Of a DNA stretch of 64,000 bases, positions 24,265 through 27,421 are shown piece after piece. Within the stretch, counting starts at the first letter, position 1; every line of letters begins with the position of its first letter. The stretch spans positions 192,677 through 256,676 of the forward strand of contig JAJCZX010000027.1 of assembly GCA_029262195.1 (NCBI GenBank), given 5' to 3'. The translations under genes and the position numbers were made by a program. This DNA is from Gemmatimonadota bacterium. Its GTDB lineage: Bacteria > Gemmatimonadota > Gemmatimonadetes > Gemmatimonadales > GWC2-71-9. The notes below the pieces were generated by a model, which had not been told where the DNA came from, did not search any database, and saw only the letters and a program-made list of their open reading frames with translations.

Positions 24265-25731
24265 ATGCCAAAAACCAGACCCTACAAATTTTATGACACC
24301 GCCGTCTCCATCTGCTCAAAATGTTACCGCAGAGCCGACGCCAAAATCGTTTTCGAAGACGGCGGAGTGTGGATGTTGAAGAGGTGTTCCGAACACGGGC
24401 GCGAAAGGGTCCTGCTTGCTGACGACATCCAATATTACAAACGGGCACGCGAGGTTTTTGTAAAAACTCCTGAGCAGGTGCAGAAGTACAACACACCAAC
24501 CCGTTACGGATGTCCTTATGACTGCGGGATATGCCCCGACCACGAACAGCACGGCTGCAACCTGATCGTTGAAATAACTGACAACTGCAACCTTAGATGC
24601 CCCACCTGTTATGCAGCCAGCGGACCCGAGAGGACCAACCACCGCCCACTCGAACAAATCGAGCGAATGTTGGACCTTGCCGTCCAGAACGAAGGTGAAC
24701 CCAGCGTGGTTCAACTTTCGGGAGGCGAACCAACCTTACATCCGCAGTTCTTCGAGATCGTGGATGCGGCCCGAGCCCGACCTATCAAACATCTAATGGT
24801 CAACACAAACGGAATTCGGATTGCCAACGAGCCGGATTTCGCAGCCCGTCTGGGCGACCTTGGCGAAGATTTCGAAGTGTACCTTCAGTTTGATTCTTTC
24901 AAACGCGAGGCTTCCCTGAACCTCCGCGGAGCCGACCTGGTGGAGACCAAGAAAAAAGCCCTCGAGCATTTGAACGAAAACAATGTCTCAACGACGCTGG
25001 TTTGCGTTGTGCGCCGCGACCTCAACGACGACGAATTAGGCGATATCATCGAATTCGCGAGGAAACAACCCTGCGTACGCGGAGTTACCTTCCAACCGAT
25101 TCAGGCGGCCGGCAGGCTCGACAATTTCGAAGACGGATACAACCTCAAACGTGACCGCCTTACACTCACCGAGGTGCGCAGGAAGATCCTTGAGCAACAC
25201 GATGCCTTTGCTCCAGAGGACATCATTCCGGTCCCCTGTCATGCCGACAGCGTCTCCATGGCATACGCACTCAAAATCGATAACGATCTGGTTCCGCTTA
25301 CCGGATTAATAGACCCTCAACTCCTAATCGAGGGCGGCCGCAACACAATTGGCTACGAATATGAAGACAATATCCAGGGCAAAATATTCGATCTTTTTTC
25401 GACCGCTCATTCACCAGTATCCCAATTCGGAGCTGTGGGCGGATTGCTCGGGGCAGCGCGGGCGACCCGTTCACTTTCAAAACTCACCTATAAGGACGTG
25501 TTCCGAGTTTTGATCGTGCAGTTCATCGATGCGCACTCCTTTGACCTCAGATCGATTAAAAAAACCTGTGTTCACATCGTGCATCCCGACGGCAAGCGAG
25601 CCATCCCGTTCGACACCTACAACATGCTGTATCGAGACGACCTCGAGACCGAGTTGCTGGGCGAAATACGACTGGAACGCGAATCAGGGCTGTACGCACC
25701 TGCTCCACCAGACGCTTCAACAGTATTGTGA
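24265..25731 (+). CDS. Tes-like radical SAM protein with auxiliary Fe-S and rubredoxin-like sites
   Basis: Radical SAM enzyme of 488 residues. Cysteines fall in three groups. A rubredoxin-like CSKC (17, 20) with CSEH (41, 44) opens the protein. CPYDCGIC and a further Cys (83, 87, 90, 98) suggest an auxiliary cluster. The SAM-cluster motif CNLRCPTC (108, 112, 115) is followed by SGGEPTLHP. A late PCHADS motif (about 328) also matches. This arrangement is what I know of the archaeal tetraether synthase Tes family, which couples lipid tails through sp3 carbons; homologues have been noted in bacteria. It overlaps the DUF547 gene by 4 bases (GTGA), which in turn overlaps a methyltransferase. Lipid coupling is an inference from family; the substrate is not shown. 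Confidence 0.85.
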   Translation: MPKTRPYKFYDTAVSICSKCYRRADAKIVFEDGGVWMLKRCSEHGRERVLLADDIQYYKRAREVFVKTPEQVQKYNTPTRYGCPYDCGICPDHEQHGCNLIVEITDNCNLRCPTCYAASGPERTNHRPLEQIERMLDLAVQNEGEPSVVQLSGGEPTLHPQFFEIVDAARARPIKHLMVNTNGIRIANEPDFAARLGDLGEDFEVYLQFDSFKREASLNLRGADLVETKKKALEHLNENNVSTTLVCVVRRDLNDDELGDIIEFARKQPCVRGVTFQPIQAAGRLDNFEDGYNLKRDRLTLTEVRRKILEQHDAFAPEDIIPVPCHADSVSMAYALKIDNDLVPLTGLIDPQLLIEGGRNTIGYEYEDNIQGKIFDLFSTAHSPVSQFGAVGGLLGAARATRSLSKLTYKDVFRVLIVQFIDAHSFDLRSIKKTCVHIVHPDGKRAIPFDTYNMLYRDDLETELLGEIRLERESGLYAPAPPDASTVL

Positions 25732-26612
25732 ACATCGTAGCTCCAGTAGCGATCGGTTTCCTGGCCTTTCTAATCGCAGCATGGGTCGTCTGGAAGTGGA
25801 ATACTAGAAAAACGCAGGTCAGGATCGACGCGCCGATCCCAGACGACTTCCCAAGCGAGGGGTTTTCTCACGAGGCCTTTGAACGACTCCTCTCCCGTTT
25901 TACCAGTAACGGTCGAATTGACTATGAGCGCTGGCACCGCGAAATCGACGCGCGACGGGAGTTGGATTCCTACCTCGCCGCCGTGGCCAGGTTCGGTCCC
26001 GACACAACTCCCGAGCGCTTCGACCGAGACCAGGATGCCCTCGCCTACTGGATGTACGCGTATAACGCACTCGTGATACGAACGATCCTACAACGCTGGC
26101 CTCTGAAAAGCGTTACCGATCTCAAAGCGCCAATCGAAATTATCAAAGGACTCGGTTTTTTTTACAACCTGGAATTCGCCGTGGACGGCCACTGGTACAC
26201 TCTGTACGCAATTGAACACGAACGCGTCACAGGCCTTGGGCGGGATCCGCGAGTGCATTTCGTTCTCAACTGTGGAAGCGAAGCCTGCCCTGCCGTCCGC
26301 CCCGAGTTACCAACGGGCGATGCCCTTGAGCCGTTTCTGGAGCAGGCAGCCAGAGACTTTATTGCCAACCCGAAGAATGTCAGCGTTGATCGCGACACGA
26401 AGACCATTCGTCTGTCGGCAATATTCAAATGGTATAAAAAAGATTTCGTTGGCGACCTGCAACGACGCGGGCTTCCCTCAGGTCGCGGAGTAATCGCCTA
26501 CGTAGAGTCGATGGTGAGCCCCGAACTTGCCGCCCAACTGGCGGACTCTCGAGACTTCAAAATCGCCTTCGTTGACTACGATTGGCGGGTGAACGTTGCC
26601 GAAACAGAGTGA
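25728..26612 (+). CDS. DUF547 domain protein with N-terminal membrane anchor
   Basis: Protein of 294 residues beginning with a single hydrophobic helix (IVAPVAIGFLAFLIAAWVVW) and then the DUF547 domain (about 45-285). DUF547 is a thiol-peptidase-like fold of unknown activity. The family core is visible: AYWMYAYNALVIRTILQ, the NLEFAVDGHWYTLYAIEHE strand pair, and FVLNCGSEACP with conserved Cys. It starts by GTG within the radical SAM stop (GTGA) and ends in a GTGA overlap with the methyltransferase, so the three are strictly coupled. The anchor suggests work at the cytoplasmic membrane, matching a lipid-directed radical SAM neighbour. No function is claimed. Confidence 0.82.
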   Translation: MNIVAPVAIGFLAFLIAAWVVWKWNTRKTQVRIDAPIPDDFPSEGFSHEAFERLLSRFTSNGRIDYERWHREIDARRELDSYLAAVARFGPDTTPERFDRDQDALAYWMYAYNALVIRTILQRWPLKSVTDLKAPIEIIKGLGFFYNLEFAVDGHWYTLYAIEHERVTGLGRDPRVHFVLNCGSEACPAVRPELPTGDALEPFLEQAARDFIANPKNVSVDRDTKTIRLSAIFKWYKKDFVGDLQRRGLPSGRGVIAYVESMVSPELAAQLADSRDFKIAFVDYDWRVNVAETE

Positions 26613-27421
26613 CGACTCAACCGATCCGACACAGCAACAATTTGTCAAATGTTAACCCGACGGTTGCATGCTGCGCCGAGTTTTATGCGCTGCCAATAGT
26701 TTCGCTGCTACTGGGAGAGTCTTTTCATCCCGGAGGAATCGGTCTCACACGTAAAATGGCAGAGGCGGCGTTCATTGGGAGGAACACCAGGGTACTGGAC
26801 GTCGCCTGCGGCCGCGGAACCTCGGCCCGAGTTGTAACGGCGGACTTCGGCGCTACAGTAACGGGAATCGACTATGCTGTGTCGAACCTCAAACACGCAC
26901 AATCTGCTTCAAGCGCAGCCGGAGACCCGCGATTCGTTGCCGGTCTGTCCCTCGCCCTTCCTCTGACGAAGGATTCCTTCGATGTCGTGACATGTGAATG
27001 CGCATTGTGCACGTTCGACAACAAAACAGCGGCTCTTGAAGAGATACACAGAGTCCTGAAACCCGGCGGGCGGCTGGCACTGTCTGACCTGGTAGTAAAC
27101 AAACCGATTCCGGAGTCCCTTGTCGGCGTGTTTGCGCGGGCCATTTGCGTGGCGGGGGCTTTACCCCAAGCAGAATACGAAGTGCTGCTGGCAGAAAACG
27201 GATTCATCAATACCAGAACCACGGATCAATCATCGGCGTTGATTCAAATGATAAACACGATAGAAAAAAGATTGGCCGTAATCCAGAGGGTCGGCGGCAC
27301 AACGAATGCGGAGTTGGGGAAGGGATTCGAAAACTCTACTCAAACTTTGGTGGCCGCGCGTGAATTCGTGCGGACCGGCGGGCTCGGCTACCGGGTATTT
27401 GTGTCTCGGAAAACCCGATGA
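26609..27421 (+). CDS. Class I SAM-dependent methyltransferase
   Basis: Methyltransferase of 270 residues; I chose GTG 26609 because it gives a 4-base GTGA overlap with the DUF547 stop, the same junction type as upstream. The Rossmann motif I is LDVACGRGTSA, followed by GIDYAVSNLKHA (acidic residue binding the SAM ribose) and a typical LKPGGRLALSDL. A Cys-Cys pair near residue 19 precedes FYALPIVSLLLGESFHPGG. Cysteine pairs of this kind occur in arsenite-methyltransferase-like proteins, but also in uncharacterised relatives, so an arsenic link is only a possibility. The radical SAM and DUF547 neighbours make methylation of a lipid or of the radical SAM product equally plausible. Confidence 0.82.
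   Translation: MTTQPIRHSNNLSNVNPTVACCAEFYALPIVSLLLGESFHPGGIGLTRKMAEAAFIGRNTRVLDVACGRGTSARVVTADFGATVTGIDYAVSNLKHAQSASSAAGDPRFVAGLSLALPLTKDSFDVVTCECALCTFDNKTAALEEIHRVLKPGGRLALSDLVVNKPIPESLVGVFARAICVAGALPQAEYEVLLAENGFINTRTTDQSSALIQMINTIEKRLAVIQRVGGTTNAELGKGFENSTQTLVAAREFVRTGGLGYRVFVSRKTR

Follow-up and report, generated by a model that had tools for sequence, protein, structure and literature searches.

Analysis of a 64,000-nucleotide stretch from a Gemmatimonadota bacterium (assembly GCA_029262195.1, contig JAJCZX010000027.1, positions 192,677 to 256,676 of the forward strand; hereafter the window) revealed a conserved three-component system built on a radical S-adenosylmethionine (SAM) protein that has the fold of the tetraether-lipid synthase Tes and is not Tes. 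The three plus-strand genes encode the Tes/TrsS-superfamily radical SAM protein (rSAM; 24265-25731, ATG start, 488 amino acids), a DUF547 protein predicted to be membrane-anchored (25728-26612, GTG start, 294 amino acids) and a DVU_1556-like class I methyltransferase (MT; 26609-27421, GTG start, 270 amino acids), with the Pfam domains Radical_SAM, HMPTM zinc ribbon, DUF547 and Methyltransf_11. Across distant bacteria, rSAM co-occurs with these particular subfamilies of DUF547 and MT, and it is very likely that the rSAM of the window does not act as a Tes.

The top NCBIfam match of rSAM was TrsS (NF045646, 308.8 bits against a cut-off of 490), followed by Tes (NF045702, 266 bits against 450), both below the family cut-offs. 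Its best solved relative was the M. jannaschii Tes (PDB 7tol, E 2e-60), and the AlphaFold 2 (AF2) model (predicted local distance difference test, pLDDT, 86) aligned to 7tom/7tol with a template-modelling (TM) score of 0.78 over about 500 columns, every other structure matching far worse. Conservation was counted over 82 close rSAM homologs, comprising the window clade and its sister clade, and three metal sites were invariant in 82/82: the rubredoxin-like Fe site C17-X2-C20-X20-C41-X2-H44 (24313-24396; zinc-ribbon PF23545, 58 bits), the N-terminal auxiliary cluster C83-X3-C87-X2-C90 with H93/H96 and C98 (24511-24558) and the radical SAM cluster C108-X3-C112-X2-C115 (24586-24609; PF04055, 94 bits), all on the plus strand. 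An earlier sequence-only reading had recognized the Tes cysteine layout in this protein, and it was right about these three sites; the inferred ligands of the C-terminal cluster, however, are not in place. ArsS, against whose profile that reading had proposed to score the protein, was also considered and is ruled out as the identity of rSAM, as the profile (TIGR04167) gave 43.7 bits against a cut-off of 300 and matched only part of the radical SAM core. The window genome has no ArsS above the cut-off, and its other radical SAM gene lies on contig C10 among unrelated genes.

The C-terminal domain (25237-25620, plus strand), examined by alignments and structure comparison, carries a degenerate Tes cluster in which C325 and C435 are kept. 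The C-terminal [Fe4S4] ligands of Tes were taken as the Cys residues common to M. jannaschii Tes and above-cut-off bacterial Tes (L121-L126); S329, T434 and D450 of the window stand where Tes has the Cys of its HxHC motif, Cys455 and Cys470, while V418 and I438 replace Met439 and Tyr459. These replacements are general, since none of the 82 homologs has Cys at 434 (T, S or A) or 450 (D or E) and 80 of them have Ile at the position of Tyr459, with C325 and C435 invariant. In addition, the window protein lacks about 21 residues that follow the Pro-Val-Pro motif in Tes. For Tes, Lloyd et al. (PMC9433317) describe a C-terminal [Fe4S4] cluster that lies close to the substrate and has a labile Met439, give evidence that a carbon-sulfur intermediate forms on an Fe-S cluster, and report Met439 and Tyr459 as completely conserved in archaeal homologs (Tyr459 in 1000).

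The phylogeny pointed in the same direction. Two maximum-likelihood trees, which contained no archaeal Tes and no TrsS above the cut-off, placed the window in a clade of rSAM-(DUF547)-MT loci (Shimodaira-Hasegawa-like approximate likelihood ratio test, SH-aLRT, 99; 99/93 in the second tree) that is itself part of a larger clade, whose rSAMs are Lgt-associated; in both trees, a fully supported branch parted the window rSAM from bacterial Tes. Clustering with Tes, on which the sequence-only reading had staked its proposal, was thus not observed, and the synthesis of a membrane-spanning lipid that it had suggested is unlikely because the inferred C-terminal ligands, Met439 and Tyr459 are replaced and the protein is neither in the Tes clade nor above the Tes cut-off. 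Separately, rSAMs above the Tes cut-off were detected in six genomes of the window's phylum, which are all six sampled genomes of one family (L121-L126 in G001, G003, G005, G007, G009 and G011) and are real candidates for a bacterial tetraether synthase.

A scan of 84,980 species genomes yielded 80 loci, and the window clade comprised 17 entries, the window counted. MT adjoins rSAM in 17/17 readable members of this clade, and an orthologous DUF547 gene lies between the two in eight loci besides the window (L041-L045, L049, L053 and L057), which come from Pseudomonadota metagenome-assembled genomes (MAGs), Planctomycetota, Shewanella canadensis, a Shewanella MAG and Ferrimonas marina. An adjacent DUF547 is missing from seven Woeseiaceae-type loci; nevertheless, a DUF547 ortholog (40-53% identity) was present in 9/9 other carrier genomes searched, so that both partners proved to be conserved companions of rSAM, as the proposal of the sequence-only reading required. 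In six of the nine (five Woeseiaceae-type genomes tested and the genome of locus L047) the ortholog occurs only away from rSAM, standing alone, and no conserved partner of these unlinked copies was found beyond lineage synteny. In L047, a second, distant DUF547 (29%; L047:12362-13168) was observed beside the rSAM-MT pair, the true ortholog being elsewhere in the genome, and in a Planctomycetota MAG (L042:659-2089) a stop breaks the rSAM frame, which may represent a sequencing error or a broken gene. The DUF547 ortholog was absent from 295 other genomes of the window's phylum (best match 113.5 bits vs 676 for the window), and the rSAM nearest to that of the window belongs to a Pseudomonadota MAG (73% identity). 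Because no other sampled genome of the phylum has a window-clade rSAM, the window genome probably acquired the trio horizontally.

With regard to the methyltransferase, the top family was DVU_1556 (NF045667, 136.7 bits, below the cut-off of 155), and the score against ArsM (NF008823) was 91 bits, again below the cut-off (263). The nearest named relative of rSAM and MT together is TrsS with its DVU_1556 methyltransferase, although both proteins fall short of the cut-offs. When MT was aligned with four above-cut-off ArsM sequences, C21/C22 corresponded to the N-terminal CC, C131 to the Cys of SNC and C180 to the Cys of GCxAGA, which are the established arsenite-thiolate positions of ArsM. All of them were invariant among the bacterial MTs aligned (L047 was left out of the later alignments), and the window protein has two Cys residues, Cys129 and Cys134, that are extra relative to ArsM. 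The N-terminal Cys-Cys pair noted earlier is indeed present, and the arsenic-lipid alternative raised with it gains some basis from the ArsM-type thiolates of MT and none from rSAM as an ArsS. Judging from these residues, it is reasonable to suppose that MT may act on a soft, thiol-bound acceptor.

The identity of the DUF547 protein is clear (PF04784, 58.2 bits vs a gathering cut-off of 27), and its anchoring in the membrane, which had been asserted from the start, is plausible. The window protein has a predicted helix at residues 4-25 with an ambiguous charge pattern; among its orthologs, lipobox-like N-termini were found in L043, L045 and L057 and a signal anchor in most others, so that DUF547 probably faces outward in bacteria. 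H177, C182, S184, C187-P188, D285-W286 and N289 are invariant and, P188 and N289 apart, suggest a Cys-based site. The PDB yielded no solved relative of this protein, whether searched by sequence or by fold (AF2 model, pLDDT 87).

The sister clade of rSAMs (mostly 55-63% identity) shows the same replacements (T/S434 and D450) and an invariant CC at 396/397, and has a different partner. A gene for an Lgt-like (diacylglyceryl-transferase-like) protein (PF01790) lies upstream of rSAM on the same strand in 60 of the 64 Lgt-bearing loci of the sister clade and its neighbours, and is also found near a more distant rSAM group (L037, L038 and L040); nothing else was conserved in the sister-clade loci. 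The protein lacks the catalytic His found in the SFHGG motif of E. coli Lgt, and its invariant GRxGC takes the place of the GRxGN of Lgt. No DUF547 is adjacent in the Lgt-like/rSAM loci, and no MT ortholog was found in eight Lgt-type genomes (best 57 bits vs 188 in Shewanella). With the Lgt-like gene upstream and the MT ortholog missing, the Lgt-like protein and DUF547-MT look like alternative partner sets, and an Lgt-like membrane protein in the place that DUF547 and MT occupy in the window suggests a step linked to lipids. The Lgt-like and rSAM genes form a two-gene operon, apparently not yet described, that is found in many Paenibacillus, Lysobacterales and Planctomycetota; examples, mostly immediately upstream of rSAM, are L033:6945-7745, L034:7154-7951 and about 60 loci in L058-L120.

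Beyond bacteria of the window clade, a similar trio was detected on three haloarchaeal plasmids (Haloarcula halophila, Salinirubellus and Haloarcula sinaiiensis), which are mutually related and were counted as one event. On these plasmids, the DUF547 gene is oriented divergently from the rSAM and MT genes, which overlap each other, and a redoxin or peroxiredoxin gene lies farther out; the rSAMs are about 29-30% identical to that of the window. Among the four haloarchaeal homologs examined, MT lies beside all four and DUF547 also beside three. The haloarchaeal rSAMs keep the C-terminal Cys and lack the N-terminal cluster Cys, whereas the Cys residues of ECxLC and CLxG are kept in the MTs. Redox- or metalloid-type neighbours recur in distant relatives, including redoxins, dihydrolipoyl dehydrogenase (in haloarchaeal neighbourhoods), an arsenate-reductase-like protein, CcdA and CobW. 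For example, in Halorarius an arsenate-reductase-like low-molecular-weight phosphatase (L185:3476-3886; 62.6 bits vs a cut-off of 174) is directly upstream of rSAM-MT, and on a Mycolicibacterium vanbaalenii plasmid (L184:1317-6357) the rSAM-MT pair lies beside CcdA, a disulfide oxidoreductase and an Rv1681-type rSAM. Similarly, L036 (5871-9260, minus strand) has a TrsS-like rSAM together with a DVU_1556-like MT fused to an N-terminal CobW/HypB GTPase domain, followed by a pyridine nucleotide-disulphide oxidoreductase (a mercuric-reductase-like flavoprotein).

In the window, the three open reading frames noticed earlier were recovered with their two GTGA junctions, each a plus-strand overlap of 4 nt (rSAM/DUF547 at 25728-25731 and DUF547/MT at 26609-26612). 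Overlaps of 4 nt occurred at 17 of 24 junctions checked in the window clade, the two of the window counted. Such overlapping junctions suggest translational coupling only and do not establish the fixed proportion of products once read from them. The operon is flanked by genes on the opposite strand, a PadR regulator and a MacB/FtsX-type permease to the left and a tetratricopeptide repeat (TPR) regulator to the right; besides the trio, no neighbour gene, these included, is kept across window-clade loci. Scans for promoters and terminators gave signals at chance level.

The mechanism that we tentatively favour, at somewhat less than even chances, is C-H activation, with no coupling of lipid tails, on a substrate that is hydrophobic or linked to the membrane, followed by methylation of a soft acceptor. 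In such a pathway, rSAM would cleave SAM and abstract H from an unactivated C-H bond of this hydrophobic or membrane-bound compound; as the Tes radical-parking cluster would be lacking, two lipid tails would not be coupled, and the carbon radical might be quenched via a carbon-heteroatom bond or a rearrangement. The ArsM-like MT, through C21/C22, C131 and C180, would methylate the soft thiol-bound acceptor, for which arsenite is the best guess and a thiol or selenol the next, and the anchored DUF547, probably with Cys182/Cys187 and His177, may handle the product at the membrane. The end product would be a methylated, heteroatom-containing (possibly arsenic-containing) compound and not a membrane-spanning lipid. 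Several points weigh against this proposal. The invariance of C325 and C435 makes a rebuilt C-terminal cluster possible, for instance one that has Asp450 among its ligands; the N-terminal CC pair is absent from the haloarchaeal MTs, so the complete thiolate set is not universal; and arsenic genes are not among the conserved neighbours of the bacterial trio, while a canonical ArsM is present elsewhere in the window genome, among unrelated genes on contig C10. A narrower version, in which the operon makes arsenic-containing lipids, appears improbable: here rSAM would form a radical at the fatty-acyl end, as Tes does on phytanyl tails, MT would supply or complete methylated arsenic there, and the lipid would be handled by DUF547 or, in the sister clade, by the Lgt-like protein. 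If true, it would provide a route to arsenic fatty acids or hydrocarbons, the biosynthesis of which is, to our knowledge, unexplained.

About as likely as the favoured mechanism is a soluble metal(loid) or chalcogen pathway, in which a TrsS/DVU_1556-type system would act on a small S, Se or metal(loid) metabolite or cofactor and no membrane lipid would be involved. It agrees with the best NCBIfam matches of both proteins, with the CobW-fused MT beside the mercuric-reductase-like flavoprotein and with the redoxins and dihydrolipoyl dehydrogenase of haloarchaea. It also agrees with the haloarchaeal DUF547 proteins, in which no N-terminal hydrophobic stretch was seen, so that a membrane location is not universal, and with the occurrence of the trio in organisms whose core lipids differ (haloarchaea vs bacteria), which weakens any idea of a specific lipid. 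On the other hand, rSAM and MT both score below the TrsS and DVU_1556 cut-offs, the window rSAM is without two Cys residues kept by TrsS-like relatives, the DUF547 of bacterial carriers is a lipoprotein or has a membrane anchor, and the sister clade has a membrane partner of the Lgt type. That membrane partner would suit a bacterial Tes, with rSAM coupling fatty-acyl tails into membrane-spanning lipids to be processed by DUF547 and MT, as would the resemblance to M. jannaschii Tes in fold and in sequence over the full length and the proposal of bacterial Tes homologs as branched glycerol dialkyl glycerol tetraether (GDGT) synthases (Zeng et al., PMC8941075); yet such a role is unlikely given the lost C-terminal ligands, Met439, Tyr459 and segment after Pro-Val-Pro, and given that rSAM falls outside the Tes clade and below a cut-off that six genomes of the same phylum exceed. 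Maturation of a peptide, pterin or other cofactor seems equally remote. Pairs of rSAM and MT are common in cofactor and peptide pathways, PF23545 bears the HMPTM name, and MJ0619, now Tes, was once named hydroxymethylpterin methyltransferase; however, the neighbourhoods showed no conserved gene for a precursor peptide or pterin, and the overall similarity is to the lipid enzyme.

These findings set apart a large Tes-fold clade that has no inferred Tes radical-parking cluster and has other partners. Tes homologs of bacteria and haloarchaea are used to infer which organisms make membrane-spanning lipids, which underlie climate proxies (PMC8941075, PMC11868695), and Tes BLAST matches in genomes of such a clade should therefore not be read as evidence of membrane-spanning-lipid producers. 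Tes homologs were also found in haloarchaea that make no GDGT (Zeng et al., PMC8941075), on which the haloarchaeal rSAM-MT(-DUF547) loci may bear. In addition, DUF547 gains its first defined partnership and a pathway that is testable in cultured strains. In the open-licence literature, no paper was found that characterizes the trio, the Lgt-like and Tes-like pair, TrsM/DVU_1556 or a bacterial DUF547.

Compared with known systems, ArsS (TIGR04167) has in common with rSAM only the radical SAM superfamily. ArsM (NF008823) shares with MT the class I methyltransferase core and the three thiolate positions, and differs in that the window MT scores below the ArsM cut-off (91 against 263 bits), has two extra Cys residues and is linked to rSAM. 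Tes (GDGT-MAS; MJ0619, 7tol/7tom, NF045702) resembles the window rSAM in fold, rubredoxin-like site, N-terminal auxiliary cluster and SAM cluster, whereas structure-based identity is 27%, the Tes residues HxHC Cys, Cys455, Cys470, Met439 and Tyr459 are replaced, and the window protein has DUF547 and MT partners and belongs to a separate clade. The Lgt-like and rSAM operon of Paenibacillus, Lysobacterales, Planctomycetota and others has a sister rSAM with the shared 434/450 replacements, but its PF01790 partner is upstream, no DUF547 is adjacent and no MT ortholog was found. TrsS (NF045646) with the DVU_1556 MT (NF045667) differs in that both window proteins score below the cut-offs, the equivalents of the C-terminal Cys434/Cys450 are T and D in the window rSAM, and DUF547 is a third member here; nevertheless, it is the best family for both proteins, and the rSAM-MT pairing is kept in distant relatives.

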